Shown here: in pieces, positions 16,035 through 21,006 of the stretch | Layout: each line of letters starts with the position of its first letter | Numbering within the stretch: position 1 is the first letter of the stretch | Translations under genes and position numbers: made by a program | Notes under the pieces: model-generated | What the model saw: the letters and a program-made list of their open reading frames with translations, nothing else | What the model was told of the DNA's origin: nothing | Databases searched by the model: none | NCBI GenBank assembly: GCA_025056115.1 | Contig: JANWVM010000009.1 | Coordinates: forward strand, 1-53,774 | Direction: 5' to 3' | DNA: 53,774 nucleotides | From: Gloeomargarita sp. SKYG116 | GTDB lineage: Bacteria; Cyanobacteriota; Cyanobacteriia; Gloeomargaritales; Gloeomargaritaceae

Positions 16035-16455
16035 CGAGGCCCCCACCACGGACAATACGGCACAACTGGTGCAACTGATTGGCCCACTCCTGCTGGACAT
16101 TGCCAAGAACTTTCGCCACAAGCAGTACTACATTGTCCAAACGCTCGACAAGCGCTGGCAGACGAGCACCTATACGTCCATTGCCGGTGCCGAGCGCACC
16201 CTGCTGTACGCCTATTGCACATTAGAAGATGCCACCAACAGCATTCCCCTGCCCAAGGACCCCTGGTTAATGGCCTTGCCGGTGCCAGTTGTCCATATCA
16301 TTTTTCAACTGCTGGCGCTAGAACCGGTGGAGAGCGTCATTTTTTGGGAAGAGCCGGGGCCGCGATTGGGCGCTGAACTCAAACGCCAGGAACTGCAAGC
16401 CTATATCCAGAACTATCTACTGCAGTTGTCGGGGCCGCCGCCGGATTTGGCTTGA
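16000..16455 (+). CDS. Conserved cyanobacterial protein of unknown function
   Basis: A 151-residue soluble protein. The start at ATG 16000 (MELEQQLQQLIDEAPTTDN) is preferred because GGGGGAG precedes it and it matches, from memory, the usual N-terminus of a cyanobacterial family (EQQLQxLIDEAP ... HxQYYIxQTLD). An ATG at 15973 would add nine residues. The middle segment FRHKQYYIVQTLDKRW and the later PLPKDPWLMALPVPVVHIIFQ are regular features of that family. No membrane segment or catalytic motif is seen. It overlaps the radical SAM gene at the 5' end and the CysQ-like gene at the 3' end (43 bases). I know no function for it. Confidence 0.8.
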   Translation: MELEQQLQQLIDEAPTTDNTAQLVQLIGPLLLDIAKNFRHKQYYIVQTLDKRWQTSTYTSIAGAERTLLYAYCTLEDATNSIPLPKDPWLMALPVPVVHIIFQLLALEPVESVIFWEEPGPRLGAELKRQELQAYIQNYLLQLSGPPPDLA

Positions 16456-17300
16456 GTCTCGGTGACATAAACGGCTTCCTGGATCAATGGCAGTAATTTG
16501 GGCAGAAATTCTGGCCACCCTACCACAATCCGCTGGCAGTGGCAGAGCGTCACAGCATCCACCACTTGGGGATCGAAACGCAGGCGTTGACCATCCAGGT
16601 CACAGCAAGTGAGTCCCGCCGCCTGGGCAATAGCAATCGGGCCGACCGTGTCCCACAGTTTGACGCGCCGGTTGAAGTACATGTAGGCCAAGGCCCGCCC
16701 CCGGATGACTTCCACCACCTTCAACCCAAAGCTGCCCATGGTTTGTAAATCCGCGCCGGGGATGAGCTTTTGTAAGGCCGGGCCGTAACGCTCGCGGTCC
16801 TTATCGCCAATCATCAGCGGGCAGTACCAGACAGACGGCGGCTCCGGGCGTTTTTGGGGCAGGGGCATCACCCGCTGGTCGGGCAACTGCTGGTACACGC
16901 CGTAGCTTGGCCCGCCCCAGTACATCCGTTCCAGCACGGGCGCATAAATCCAGCCCGCCGTCGGTTGATAGTGCTCCAGCAATCCCACCATCAGGGAGTA
17001 GTAGGGCCGTTGATGCACGAAATCATCAGTGCCATCAATGGGGTCAATGCACCAGAGACGCGGGCGACCGGCAGTGTAGTCGTAGCGGGAGTCGGGGTTT
17101 TCTTCGGTAATCAGGCCGTCCTCAGGAAACCATTGGCGAAACTGGTGGGTTAAGCGGGCGTCTAGCGCCTGGTCGACGGTGGTGACATAGTCCGCTGGGC
17201 CTTTCTCCATCACCGTGAAACCCGTTTCACCCATGCGCCGGGCCTGCGCCCCACATGCCCGCAGCAGCTCGCGAATTGCCCCGTCCCACTGCCAATCCAT
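16413..17300 (-). CDS. Inositol monophosphatase family protein, probable 3'(2'),5'-bisphosphate nucleotidase (CysQ-like)
   Basis: A 295-residue Mg2+- and Li+-sensitive phosphatase of the IMPase superfamily. Metal-binding motifs are present: ITEENPDS for the first Glu, DPIDGTDDF near residue 87 for the central DPxDGT block, and WDTVGPIAIAQAAG near the C-terminal quarter for the closing WD motif. Members hydrolyse inositol phosphates, fructose-1,6-bisphosphate or PAP. The WCIDPIDGTDDFVHQ wording is closest to CysQ/PAP phosphatases, but substrate is not proven by sequence. It lies 65 bases downstream of tRNA-Pro on the same strand and overlaps the preceding convergent gene by 43 bases. Confidence 0.82.
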   Translation of the reverse strand: MDWQWDGAIRELLRACGAQARRMGETGFTVMEKGPADYVTTVDQALDARLTHQFRQWFPEDGLITEENPDSRYDYTAGRPRLWCIDPIDGTDDFVHQRPYYSLMVGLLEHYQPTAGWIYAPVLERMYWGGPSYGVYQQLPDQRVMPLPQKRPEPPSVWYCPLMIGDKDRERYGPALQKLIPGADLQTMGSFGLKVVEVIRGRALAYMYFNRRVKLWDTVGPIAIAQAAGLTCCDLDGQRLRFDPQVVDAVTLCHCQRIVVGWPEFLPKLLPLIQEAVYVTETQAKSGGGPDNCSR

Positions 17301-17318: not shown

Positions 17319-17334
17319 GTAACAACTCTGTTAC
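17319..17334. promoter_or_regulatory. Inverted repeat GTAACA-N4-TGTTAC upstream of the CysQ-like gene
   Basis: The element has perfect 6-base arms, 19-34 bases upstream of the CysQ-like start codon and between it and tRNA-Pro. It could be an operator or a small RNA hairpin. The same half-sites with a 2-base spacer recur at 18189-18202 on the other side of lipM. Confidence 0.4.
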
Positions 17335-17365: not shown

Positions 17366-17439
17366 TCGGGATGGCGGGATTCGAACCCACGGCCCCTTCG
17401 TCCCGAACGAAGTGCGCTACCAAGCTGCGCTACATCCCG
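17366..17439 (-). tRNA. tRNA-Pro(CGG)
   Basis: On the minus strand the 74 bases fold as a full cloverleaf. The acceptor arms CGGGATG/CATCCCG pair over 7 bp with discriminator A. The anticodon stem CTTCG/CGAAG encloses the loop TTCGGGA, giving anticodon CGG (proline). The T arm contains GGTTCGAATCC. CCA is not encoded. The 5' end is only two bases from the ATG of the divergent lipM-like gene. Confidence 0.97.
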
Positions 17440-17441
17440 TC

Positions 17442-18122
17442 ATGGCTCGCATCATCCCTAGCTTAGCACCATCTGCCCCCTGGCTAGTTTGGCCGTTGCA
17501 AGTTGCGGATGGCGACACCCAGATGCAAACCGACCTGGCTTTACTAGCAGCCCATCAACGGGGAGAGATTGCCGGCGCAGTGCGATTGTACCAGTGGCAA
17601 CCGGCGGCCATTTCCCTGGGGTATCACCAGCAGCATTGGCCGACGCACTGGGCGTCTATCACCTATCACGGCCAACCACTCCAGCTGATACGTCGCCCGT
17701 CGGGGGGCAGCGCCGTTTTGCATCAAGGTGACTTGTGCTATGCAGTGGTCATTGGCATCCAACCGGGAACCTATCGCCAGCAAGTACAACGCATCCAGAA
17801 CTGGCTGATCCACGGCTGGCGCGAACTAGGTATTTCCCTAGAATTGGGCAGCGACCGCCCCCACCGCAACTTACCCCATTGTTTCGCCCAGGCCGTCACA
17901 ACTGATCTGGTCACCGCCGCTGGTCATAAGTTCATTGGCAGTGCCCAATTGCGCCGGGGACATAGCTTGCTGCAACATGGTTCCATGCAACTGCATCCCG
18001 ACCCCCACCTCTGGCAACAAATCTTTGGCGTTAGCCCACCGCCGTCCGTCTCTACGCCACCCATGCGTGAGGTAGTGGCACATCTCCTAGCCCTTGCCCC
18101 TACTTACTTGAGGGACGCCTGA
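17442..18122 (+). CDS. Lipoate-protein ligase/octanoyltransferase family protein (LipM-like)
   Basis: A 226-residue protein of the biotin/lipoate protein ligase superfamily, which transfers octanoyl or lipoyl groups to lipoyl domains such as those of pyruvate dehydrogenase and GcvH. The family block RRPSGGSAVLHQGDLCYAVV is present. So are the conserved lysine in GHKFIGSAQLRR, a possible catalytic cysteine in LPHCFAQA, and LLQHGSM. The CF plus GSAQ arrangement resembles LipM octanoyltransferase more than LplA, but this is inference. The start at ATG 17442 is forced: any longer frame runs antisense through tRNA-Pro. A minus-strand NtcA-type promoter lies just past its 3' end. Confidence 0.8.
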   Translation: MARIIPSLAPSAPWLVWPLQVADGDTQMQTDLALLAAHQRGEIAGAVRLYQWQPAAISLGYHQQHWPTHWASITYHGQPLQLIRRPSGGSAVLHQGDLCYAVVIGIQPGTYRQQVQRIQNWLIHGWRELGISLELGSDRPHRNLPHCFAQAVTTDLVTAAGHKFIGSAQLRRGHSLLQHGSMQLHPDPHLWQQIFGVSPPPSVSTPPMREVVAHLLALAPTYLRDA

Positions 18123-18160
18123 CCACTTAAAAGTTTTGCTTATCAGTCCCCAGTAGCCCA

Positions 18161-18202
18161 AATGTAAAGTTTTATAAATGAAGCGCTAGTAACAATTGTT
18201 AC
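18161..18202 (-). promoter_or_regulatory. NtcA-type promoter: GTA-N8-TAC site with spaced -10 box
   Basis: Bases 18189-18202 read GTAACAATTGTTAC, a perfect palindrome matching the NtcA consensus GTA-N8-TAC. On the minus strand TACATT (18166-18161) follows after exactly 22 bases, fitting the -10 (TAN3T) spacing of NtcA-activated class II promoters. The predicted transcript would start near 18154 and run antisense through lipM toward tRNA-Pro. No suitable -10 box is found for the plus strand. Function is inferred from the consensus only. Confidence 0.5.
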
Positions 18203-18221
18203 CTAAGATGGAAGTAGGAGG

Positions 18222-18337
18222 ATTTCAGTCGAGTCGCAGAATTTTGCTGAGGCTGGACTGGGATTATCCGTCTCTGAGAAGTCTTGGTCTAGGTATCGTG
18301 TCTCAGCCGGTTGGGGATGCAAGCCGGCTCTTTCTTT
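18222..18337 (+). ncRNA. Candidate small RNA or structured 3' UTR with terminator-like end
   Basis: Three hairpins occur in 116 gene-free bases. The first (18226-18260) pairs 5, 4 and 3 bp with single mismatches and a 7-base loop. The second pairs CTGAGA (18274-18279) with TCTCAG (18301-18306). The third (18305-18329) pairs AGCCGG with CCGGCT, extendable to 8 bp, and is followed by CTTTCTTT. The tail runs into the complement of the kinase stop codon. No promoter was identified, so it may be the lipM 3' UTR rather than a separate RNA. Confidence 0.35.
18305..18337 (+). terminator. Probable intrinsic terminator, plus strand
   Basis: A stem AGCCGG/CCGGCT with a short loop is followed by CTTTCTTT. 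The U-rich tail is on the plus strand only, so it would end lipM transcripts or a small RNA from the interval, before they invade the convergent kinase gene. Confidence 0.5.
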
Positions 18338-19820
18338 AGGGACATTCTCCCCACAGCACGTCTTTACAAGCGAGGATACGGGCTTCCAACCGGCGGATTT
18401 CCTGTTCACATTGTTGTTGCAGTTGGCGGACTTCAGCGGCAGCCGCACCAGGCTTTTCGATTTGTTGCAGGATGGCCAGCGCTTTTTCCCACTGGGCTTT
18501 GGCGGCTTGCAATTGTTCCAGGGTTTTGGCTTGGGTGGTTTGTTGGCTCGCTTGGGTCATCAGGGTTTGAGCTTCGGTCAAGGCGGCGGTTGCAGAATGG
18601 CGCCCCCACTGTTGCCAACCGAACCAGCCGCCGACTGCCAGCACCACGAGGGCTGCTCCGGCACCCCATAGCCAGGGCCAGAGGTTGGGCCTCGCTGGAG
18701 CAACGGCTGTGGGGACTGGCTGGGTGGCATCGGTCGCCGGGAGGACGCGGCGGTTGGCGGCTGGGATGGTCGCATCCGGGTCGGTGGCGACCGTGGGTTC
18801 AATCAGGGGTGGCGTGTGGGTCTGGGACGCAGCGACGGTGGGTTCCACCACTGGTTGAGCTGTGAGGGTGGGTTCAATTTCCAGCGGTTGGGTGGCAGGA
18901 GGGGATTCACCTTCACGGTAGGTCGGTTCGGCCATGCGCAGGGCCAGGTCCACCGGCGGCAACGGCGGCGCAATCTGGGGCAACTGGGCCAACAGGGGTT
19001 GCAAATCCTGGAGGATTTCTTCAGCCCGTTGATAGCGCTGGCTGAAGTGATAACGCACCATTTTGGTCAAAATCTGCGCCAACGTGGGACTAACCTGAGC
19101 GCGGTCTTGCCAAAGGATTTCACCGGTGTCCACATCTTCTGGTAAGTCACGCGGGTGGACACCTGTCAGGGCTTGAATGGCCATCATCCCCAGCGCGTAC
19201 AGGTCGCTGCTGAAGCGCGGTTTGCCGCTGGACTGCTCCGTGGGCATGTATCCCTGGGTGCCAATCCCCACGGTTTGGCTGGCTTCCGCGGGCGCAGCCC
19301 CAGCGATGGGGAGGTGTTTGACGGCGCCGAAATCAATCAACACCAAGTTGCCATCCCCCTGCCGGCGGATCAGGTTGCTGGGTTTGAGGTCGCGATGAAT
19401 CACGCCGCGATTGTGGATAAATTGCAGGATTTGCAACACGTCTGTGAGAAAGGTCAAGACCCAGTTCTCGTCAAAGACGCGCCCCGGCACCAATTCTTGA
19501 GCCAATGTATGTCCAGGGATGAATTCCTCTACCAGGTAAAACTCTTGGTTTTGTTCAAAAAAGGCCAGCAGTTGGGGGATTTGGGGATGGCGCAATTTCT
19601 CCAGGGTTTCGGCCTCTTTGTAAAACAGCCGCCGCGCGACTTCCATGGTTTTGGGGTCATGGCTACCGTGCAGCATTTTCACCACGCACTGGGGTTGTCC
19701 GGGTCGCTTGGTATCCTGGGCCAAAAACGTCTTGCCAAACCCCCCCGCCGCTAAGGTGGCAATGATGCGATACCGCCCGTCCAGTAGTTGATTGATCACG
19801 TGATCACGGCTCCCCTGCAT
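18336..19820 (-). CDS. Serine/threonine protein kinase with transmembrane C-terminal region
   Basis: A Hanks-type kinase of 494 residues from ATG 19820; an alternative GTG lies 7 codons on. The glycine loop LAAGGFGKTF is near residue 25, the ATP-binding lysine in VVKML at about 48, HRDLKPSN at 142-149 and DFG at 163-165. GTQGYMPTEQ forms the activation segment end. A Pro/Thr-rich linker (about 285-375) has repeated EPT motifs that could be phosphorylated. A transmembrane helix follows at about 381-402, then a Gln/Ala-rich coiled-coil-like tail. Topology implies a cytosolic kinase with a periplasmic tail. It overlaps the FIST gene by 17 bases, so the two are likely partners. The targets are unknown. 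Confidence 0.92.
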   Translation of the reverse strand: MQGSRDHVINQLLDGRYRIIATLAAGGFGKTFLAQDTKRPGQPQCVVKMLHGSHDPKTMEVARRLFYKEAETLEKLRHPQIPQLLAFFEQNQEFYLVEEFIPGHTLAQELVPGRVFDENWVLTFLTDVLQILQFIHNRGVIHRDLKPSNLIRRQGDGNLVLIDFGAVKHLPIAGAAPAEASQTVGIGTQGYMPTEQSSGKPRFSSDLYALGMMAIQALTGVHPRDLPEDVDTGEILWQDRAQVSPTLAQILTKMVRYHFSQRYQRAEEILQDLQPLLAQLPQIAPPLPPVDLALRMAEPTYREGESPPATQPLEIEPTLTAQPVVEPTVAASQTHTPPLIEPTVATDPDATIPAANRRVLPATDATQPVPTAVAPARPNLWPWLWGAGAALVVLAVGGWFGWQQWGRHSATAALTEAQTLMTQASQQTTQAKTLEQLQAAKAQWEKALAILQQIEKPGAAAAEVRQLQQQCEQEIRRLEARILACKDVLWGECP

Positions 19821-21006
19821 ACCACAACACAAAAACGGCGGTATAGCCATGCAGGTAGGTCGTTTTGCCCACTGGCCCAATCTCACCGTTGCAAAAACAT
19901 CCCGCCAGCGTCGTATGGGGCAAATAGCGTTGAAATAAATGGGAATCCACATGGGGTCGCCCGTACAGGTGTTGCCCTCGTCCCAGGCAGGCAAACATCA
20001 ACGCGCCCAAGGGGGGTTCCGGATGGTGGCGCACATGGGCCGCTAGCAGTTGCTCTAAATCAGTCATCGAGGTCTGGGCGTCCCGCAGGTGAAATTGCAC
20101 CCGTTGTCCTGGTCGCACCCGGTCGCCAATGGCAATCGCCCCATGCCGCGGGTCAATCCCCAGCAAATTCCGGATGAGAAAGTCGGTGGGGGCTAATTCC
20201 TGCTTGAACTCATCGCTGACGACGCCAATGTGTAACCCGGATTGGGCCAACTCCCGGTCGGCTTCGTCCAAATTTTGGATGAGATTTTGCAGGACCTGCA
20301 GGGGCGGCCGGTCTTCTAGACCCAGGATGATATTGCGCTCGCCACGGGTGACCCGGTAGGGCTGACCGATGGGACGGCAACCTTGGGCGACAATCGTTTC
20401 GGCCCGCAGCCCCGCCAACGCCACCCCCACCACGCCTTGGGTCAGTAGTTCTTGCTGGTAGAACAACCCATCACCAACCAGTCCCCCCACTTTGACGCTG
20501 CGCGGGTAGGCGTAATCCAAACCCTGAAGCACGTCCATGATCCGGCTGGTCGCAGGGTCGGCAAGTAGCACAAAGTGGGGTTCTTGGGCGGGATCGACGC
20601 CCACCAAGTCTACCCAGGCGTGCGGCGGGCTGTCCAAATCGGGCAAATCCTGGGGTTGAATCACAAACGGGTGGACCTGCACACCAGGCAAACGTGCGAC
20701 GCTCAGGGCCAAGGCCGGTTTGCCTTCAATTTCCTGGGCCACGCCGCTCGGTAATGAACCAATCACCCCCCCCGCCCCGCAACCGACTAGGCAGCGAATC
20801 GGTAGATACTCGTGCAACAGAGGCAACAACCGCACATATTCACTGGCAAAACTATCACTGATAAACACCAGCGCTAGGTCAATGGTTCCCACTGCTTGCA
20901 CTTGGGCCGTTACCTCTTGAATGGCTCGCTCCAACGAAACTTGGGTGGAAAGCACATTCAACCAAATAGGTGAAGGTGGTGTCTCAGCGGCGACAAACCG
21001 TTCCAT
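19804..21006 (-). CDS. FIST domain sensory protein
   Basis: A 400-residue soluble protein with FIST_N (about 30-230; LALVFISDSF, CLVGCGAGGVIGS) followed by FIST_C (about 230-390; FLIRNLLGIDPRHGAIAI, ALMFACLGRG, and FCNGEIGPVGKTTYLHGYT near the end). FIST domains are predicted small-ligand sensors associated with bacterial signal transduction. Here the domain pair stands alone without a fused histidine kinase or GGDEF. Its 3' end overlaps the start of the Ser/Thr kinase gene by 17 bases, so the sensor and kinase are probably translated together. The ligand is unknown. Confidence 0.9.
   Translation of the reverse strand: MERFVAAETPPSPIWLNVLSTQVSLERAIQEVTAQVQAVGTIDLALVFISDSFASEYVRLLPLLHEYLPIRCLVGCGAGGVIGSLPSGVAQEIEGKPALALSVARLPGVQVHPFVIQPQDLPDLDSPPHAWVDLVGVDPAQEPHFVLLADPATSRIMDVLQGLDYAYPRSVKVGGLVGDGLFYQQELLTQGVVGVALAGLRAETIVAQGCRPIGQPYRVTRGERNIILGLEDRPPLQVLQNLIQNLDEADRELAQSGLHIGVVSDEFKQELAPTDFLIRNLLGIDPRHGAIAIGDRVRPGQRVQFHLRDAQTSMTDLEQLLAAHVRHHPEPPLGALMFACLGRGQHLYGRPHVDSHLFQRYLPHTTLAGCFCNGEIGPVGKTTYLHGYTAVFVLWYAGEP

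Follow-up and report, generated by a model that had tools for sequence, protein, structure and literature searches.

A conserved NtcA-type site beside a predicted small RNA gene in Gloeomargarita and its relatives

Introduction

Among living cyanobacteria, Gloeomargaritales are usually regarded as the closest to plastids. In Gloeomargarita sp. SKYG116, a short gap between two convergent genes, a LipM/LplA-like gene (hereafter, lipM) on the plus strand and a Ser/Thr kinase gene on the minus strand, holds a palindrome of the NtcA type, and the locus raises the question of which strand, and which product, this site would serve. The window, that is, the whole stretch of DNA that was analysed, comprises 53,774 nucleotides of contig JANWVM010000009.1, and the positions given below refer to it. 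A reading made from the letters of the DNA (hereafter, the sequence-only reading) had interpreted the site as an NtcA-activated promoter directed antisense to lipM, which would link lipoylation to nitrogen status. According to the rule given in the part of PMC6166021 available to us, NtcA sites centred at −41.5 activate, while sites that overlap the −35 box, the −10 box or the start repress. The features of the locus are collected in Table 1.

Table 1. Features in and around the convergent gap, with their positions in the window.
Feature	Position	Strand	Basis or remark
CysQ-like gene	16413–17300	−	
tRNA-Pro	17366–17439	−	
LipM/LplA-like gene	17442–18122	+	Pfam LplA-B_cat 2.3e-20; outside the conserved unit
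Conserved AT-rich block (AAAGTTTTGCTTATCAGTC region)	18131–18149	.	Found in every genus genome, left of the promoter
Putative minus-strand −10 box TACATT (TAN3T)	18161–18166	−	22 bases from the NtcA site
HLR1-like (RpaB-type) direct repeat TTTATAAAACTTTACATT	18161–18178	−	1 mismatch to KTTACAWW-N2-KTTACAWW
NtcA-type palindrome GTAACAATTGTTAC (GTA-N8-TAC)	18189–18202	.	Pattern match
Putative plus-strand −10 box TAAGAT	18204–18209	+	Follows the NtcA site after one base
Predicted small RNA gene, ~121 nt	18216–18336	+	Limits placed by the −10 box (start) and the T-run (end)
5′ hairpin of the predicted RNA	18217–18269	+	Begins at ~+2; 20 pairs
Near-invariant linker CTGAGAAGTCTTGGT	18274–18288	+	Alignment; candidate target-binding segment
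Terminator hairpin and T-run AGCCGGTT...AAGCCGGCT CTTTCTTT	18305–18338	+	Folds
Ser/Thr kinase gene	18336–19994	−	Pfam Pkinase 1.9e-34; 3′ end abuts the small RNA terminator

Results

The NtcA-type site is part of a promoter block conserved in the family

We found that the exact GTA-N8-TAC palindrome named in the sequence-only reading is present, and that on the minus strand a 22-base spacer and a TAN3T box, TACATT, follow it as that reading had stated. The position of this box predicts a minus-strand start at approximately 18154, relative to which the palindrome is centred at approximately −41.5. Taken alone, the combination of palindrome, spacer and box is at chance level. The window contains 4 GTAN8TAC sites where 3.8 are expected, and a whole-genome count of GTAN8TAC-N22-TAN3T gave 3, as compared with 5 for a reversed control pattern. 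The exact palindrome GTAACNNNNGTTAC gave a whole-genome count of 1, as compared with 4 for the control, each palindromic match in this count being scored on both strands. The genome of the window carries an ntcA gene interrupted by contig ends. In this assembly (G000), the gene is divided between the ends of contigs C111 and C233, and therefore neither piece attains the curated cut-off.

The site is lifted above chance because the promoter block that contains it is conserved in the family. Our family set consisted of eight genomes, namely the window and G001–G006, which represent one genus (seven genomes), and G007, which represents another genus of the same family. The class set consisted of 388 genomes, eight of them of the family (Gloeomargaritales relatives) and 380 others. 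When the block was written as the pattern TGTAAANTTTTATNNAT-N9-GTN7GTTACNTAAKATG, with up to three mismatches allowed, each of the eight family genomes gave a single match with zero mismatches, and none of the 380 non-family genomes of the class gave any. BLAST with positions 18100–18345 as the query recovered the whole block in all six other genomes of the genus, and the promoter part alone (query 61–111) in G007. In a named genome collection, from which records near the genome of the window were possibly excluded, the exact promoter pattern was found in three stretches, belonging to Gloeomargaritaceae C42_A2020_066, Gloeomargaritales VI4D9 and one uncultured cyanobacterium.

The geometry of an NtcA-activated promoter claimed for the minus strand was borne out, as it matches the class II spacing and is kept across the family. 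The spacer between the NtcA site and the TAN3T box is 22 bases in all eight genomes, and GTAN8TAC is kept in seven, the exception being G005 with GTCGCAATTGTTAC; the looser core GTN10AC is present in all eight. TACATT is likewise found in seven genomes, G001 having TACACA, which lacks the final T of TAN3T. Site and spacing, for which the sequence-only reading had proposed a comparison with relatives, are thus retained there. The spacer segment of the minus-strand promoter (18160–18179) showed an identity of 0.89–0.97 in the genus and of 0.81–0.94 in comparison with G007, and is conserved beyond the needs of an NtcA promoter. Farther to the left, the AT-rich block showed a mean pairwise identity of 0.79–0.82 among the seven genus genomes, as compared with 0.25–0.41 just left of it. 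This block may represent the 5′ part of a hypothetical minus-strand transcript or an upstream control element.

A conserved unit on the plus strand has the features of a small RNA gene

All eight family genomes have TAAGAT or TAATAT, a good candidate for a plus-strand −10 box, separated from the NtcA site by a single base. No −35 box was recognisable for this plus-strand promoter. Relative to the plus-strand start at approximately 18216, the NtcA site covers −27 to −14, and in all eight genomes it ends one base before the −10 hexamer, lying between −35 and −10 without overlap. The predicted RNA starts approximately 6 bases after the −10 box, at the expected start. It is conserved in all seven genus genomes, where the unit has a length of 110–121 nt, and the same architecture, with a length of 152 nt, is found in G007. 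The 5′ hairpin opens at +2 or +3 in the genus, and within 3 bases of the predicted start in all eight genomes. The linker that follows has a core, CTGAGAANNCTTGGT, present in seven of seven genus genomes, and its five predicted pairs never vary among the aligned sequences. The unit closes with a GC hairpin and then GGCTCTTT[C/T]TT in all eight family genomes, the T-run of the genus being CTTTCTTT or CTTTTTTT. A scan for consensus terminators, which has a loop limit of 8 bases, reported none, because the loop of this terminator exceeds that limit. In G007, the sequence of the RNA is turned over, and 5′ hairpin, linker, GC hairpin and T-run still follow one another in this order. The G007 unit (L009, 1545–1760) is followed at a short distance, in the same orientation, by a small gene and a homoserine dehydrogenase-like gene, and therefore it could there be a leader or attenuator, not a small RNA.

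RNAalifold predicted 31 pairs in this unit, 3 of them with changes on both sides. In the whole structure, 96.8% of cells were paired, a value that was as high in 10 of 500 column shuffles, and the covariation score was equalled in 5 of 500. When the structure was slid, pairing fell to 25–52%. The 5′ helix showed 95.0% of cells paired, with 3 of its 20 pairs compensated. Since the covariation statistics are based on 6 distinct sequences, their support for the structure is suggestive rather than proof. With regard to folding energy, the plus-strand RNA of each of the eight genomes gave a value below the shuffle mean (z −1.35 to −3.52), the values being modest in several single genomes, such as the window (z −1.79, with 14 of 200 shuffles folding as well) and G007 (z −1.35, 22 of 200). 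A hypothetical minus transcript of equal length gave z of −1.51 to +1.29. When the RNA region was folded as its reverse complement, z was −2.62 to +0.03, and the low values in G002, G004 and G005 (−2.1 to −2.6) indicate that the energy-based strand preference is weak or absent in these three genomes.

We also compared the predicted RNA with known families and searched for wider homologues. At the gathering threshold, Rfam returned no family but tRNA, leaving the predicted RNA unmatched. RcsR1 appeared in a relaxed Rfam search with 17.6 bits, as compared with a gathering score of 60, and was set aside as chance, and 6S RNA (RF00013) was rejected since it has no Rfam match here and the 6S RNA of the genome lies on another contig. 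A small protein encoded on the plus strand was rejected as well, the 43-codon open reading frame from 18208 being open in the window and frame-shifted or stopped in relatives. Short BLAST matches in other genera, seven of which were inspected, look like chance, several of them falling within coding sequence. A covariance model of the predicted RNA matched 7 of the 388 class genomes, all of the genus, with no relative outside it, and a search for the complement of the linker gave exact matches only at the seven genus loci themselves and at one place in G003. Taken together, we think it rather probable that the site controls a lineage-specific small RNA gene on the plus strand, which NtcA would repress, the same palindrome being placed to activate the minus strand.

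The minus-strand promoter as a possible main function

The geometry described above also admits the opposite weighting, namely that the NtcA-activated minus-strand promoter is the main function, giving a transcript of nitrogen starvation, and that the plus-strand unit is secondary. Such a transcript would be antisense to lipM in the window and would form the leader of murJ in G007, where murJ begins approximately 100 bases downstream on the minus strand. The exact class II geometry, with the invariant spacer and a TACATT box in seven of the eight genomes, is consistent with this reading, and Nostoc PCC 7120 has antisense RNAs driven by NtcA, as described in the portion of PMC10287535 at hand. 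It is kept alive mainly because the first bases of the minus transcript (18131–18149) are conserved in the genus; they are superfluous to the plus-strand model, and a minus-strand transcript explains them better than a plus-strand one. However, the genes downstream of the minus start differ between genomes, and no common fold or terminator was seen there by the consensus terminator scan and the folds, G001 is without the T of TAN3T, and the conserved hairpin and terminator lie on the opposite strand. We therefore accord this reading a minor, though real, chance, and prefer the plus-strand small RNA as the main product.

An HLR1-like repeat lies beside the NtcA-type site

A direct repeat resembling HLR1, the RpaB-type motif, spans the −10 box of the minus start and covers approximately −55 to −38 relative to the plus start. 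The HLR1 consensus and position rules were taken from the available part of PMC13421787. In its 16-base form, the repeat has one mismatch in six of the eight family genomes, two in G006 and three in G007. Genome-wide, HLR1-type matches numbered 18, the repeat being one of them, as compared with 4 for a reversed control. The positions reported for HLR1 in that part of PMC13421787 are approximately −66 to −45 when activating and −38 to +23 when repressing. By these figures, the repeat would lie near the activating zone for the plus start and in the repressing zone for the minus start. A conserved RpaB-like match beside an NtcA site suggests, at the level of motifs, a switch between nitrogen and light. 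Of the genome's six perfect HLR1 matches, inspected by eye, none is upstream of evident photosystem genes, which weakens the case for RpaB.

In the fullest form of this idea, some 60 bases would act as a switch with two inputs and two outputs, in which NtcA turns the plus-strand RNA off and the minus strand on, and RpaB at the HLR1-like repeat does the reverse. If true, nitrogen and light signals would together decide between two opposite RNAs. We consider a switch of this kind doubtful. A different possibility is that NtcA is not the regulator, and that another protein of the CRP family on the palindrome, or RpaB at the repeat, makes the small RNA answer light or redox, not nitrogen. The genome contains CRP-family matches besides ntcA, the repeat lies near the activating range reported in the available part of PMC13421787, and HLR1-type matches are enriched over the reversed control. 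However, the GTA-N8-TAC core is retained in seven of the eight genomes, the HLR1 match decays in G006 and G007, and the perfect matches do not stand before evident photosystem genes. Control by another regulator appears to us quite improbable.

The gene left of the promoter varies between genomes

The surroundings of lipM agree with the sequence-only reading, the tRNA-Pro and CysQ-like genes near lipM both being located as it had described. We found that lipM adjoins the promoter in three of the eight genomes (window, G001 and G003). A protein search placed it away from the promoter in G002, G004, G005 and G007, all four of which keep the promoter, and did not find it in G006, a genome that is 83% complete. 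In its place, G005 has an SbtA/SbtB-like pair (L008, 2–1395), G002 a transposase-like fragment, G004 a distant flotillin-like gene and G007 murJ, these names having been assigned by eye. Since the left neighbour varies in this manner, the unit is regarded as autonomous. On its other side, the kinase gene adjoins the predicted RNA in seven of seven genus genomes.

The proposed link between lipM, lipoylation and nitrogen status was not supported by this distribution. Although lipM is the adjacent convergent gene in three genomes and its end in the window lies approximately 30 bases from the predicted minus-strand start, a promoter that serves to lower lipoylation under nitrogen stress through an antisense transcript is very improbable, being retained in four genomes with lipM elsewhere.

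Two further observations concern the genes around the gap. A second palindrome, GTAACAACTCTGTTAC, lies at 17319–17334, between the start of the CysQ-like gene and tRNA-Pro, and is 2 bases too long for GTA-N8-TAC. On the minus strand, the kinase open reading frame and that of a FIST-domain protein (19804–21006) overlap by approximately 190 bases as mechanically called, and the true start of the kinase is probably downstream of the start of its open reading frame, near 19800.

Discussion

In the mechanism that we favour, RNA polymerase, directed by the TAAGAT box, would produce an RNA of approximately 120 nt from approximately 18216, consisting of a long 5′ hairpin, the near-invariant linker (CUGAGAANNCUUGGU) and the terminator hairpin. 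NtcA bound to the palindrome would press directly against the plus-strand −10 box and block it, so that the RNA would be made with plentiful nitrogen and would fall when nitrogen is short. Approached from the opposite side, the same palindrome would be placed to activate the minus-strand start at approximately 18154, and the promoter is probably bidirectional with opposite signs. Where lipM happens to adjoin, an antisense overlap with lipM would result. The RNA itself would act by base-pairing with target mRNAs.

In a crude test of the 5′ region of nblA as a pairing target, duplex z ranged from −1.57 to +1.84 in the eight genomes, near shuffled controls. In the genome of the window, GTAACTGGGGATAC lies 36 bases upstream of nblA, within the 5′ region of this gene; in the other seven genomes, no GTAN8TAC was found within 400 bases upstream of nblA.

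In literature listings on Gloeomargarita with NtcA or small RNA, we found no description of this element. On the best reading, the predicted small RNA gene is undescribed and lineage-specific, and represents a further case of an established type of control. If confirmed, it would add an undescribed NtcA-controlled small RNA family in Gloeomargaritales, and would point to NtcA-repressed small RNAs well beyond the heterocyst formers. It would also be a compact case in which to ask if one NtcA site can repress one strand and activate the other. The locus further carries a warning that a promoter should not be tied to a neighbouring gene that is absent beside it in relatives.

Comparison with known systems

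In its working, NsrR1 of Nostoc PCC 7120 appears to be the closest known case. NsrR1 is described, in the accessible part of PMC6166021, as an intergenic small RNA of approximately 110 nt that has a Rho-independent terminator and is repressed on nitrogen removal. The present unit, as a prediction, resembles it in being a stand-alone unit of 110–121 nt in the genus, with a terminator hairpin and T-run in all eight genomes, and in having an NtcA site at the −10 box, a feature conserved among the NsrR1 homologues treated in the same part of that paper (PMC6166021). The two differ in that the NtcA motif of NsrR1 partly overlaps the −10 box, whereas the present site stops one base short, and in that NsrR1 is reported there only from heterocystous strains and two close unicellular ones (PMC6166021, in part). 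The portion of PMC6166021 available says nothing of an activated promoter in mirror image. NsrR1 is likened here by description, not by sequence, and nblA as a target is unsupported in the present case. The covariance model of the predicted RNA gave no match in the other 381 of the 388 class genomes, which may or may not include carriers of nsrR1.

For the minus strand, NsiR4 offers a likeness as an NtcA-activated small RNA that, in the available part of its description, lies tail to tail with its neighbour in Nostoc, as the minus start would here. In contrast to NsiR4, no conserved structure or terminator was seen on the minus strand, and this likeness, too, is one of description, not of sequence. 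The antisense RNAs of Nostoc PCC 7120 share with the present locus an activating NtcA site upstream of the antisense start, as far as the available part of PMC10287535 describes them, whereas here the sense gene is not kept beside the promoter in the family. As for the combination of motifs, the scpB and scpE promoters of Synechocystis PCC 6803 are protein-coding, work in one direction and have another spacing. They nevertheless resemble the present locus in having NtcA and HLR1 motifs adjacent or interleaved, and the consulted part of PMC6331805 reports binding of NtcA to them by EMSA.
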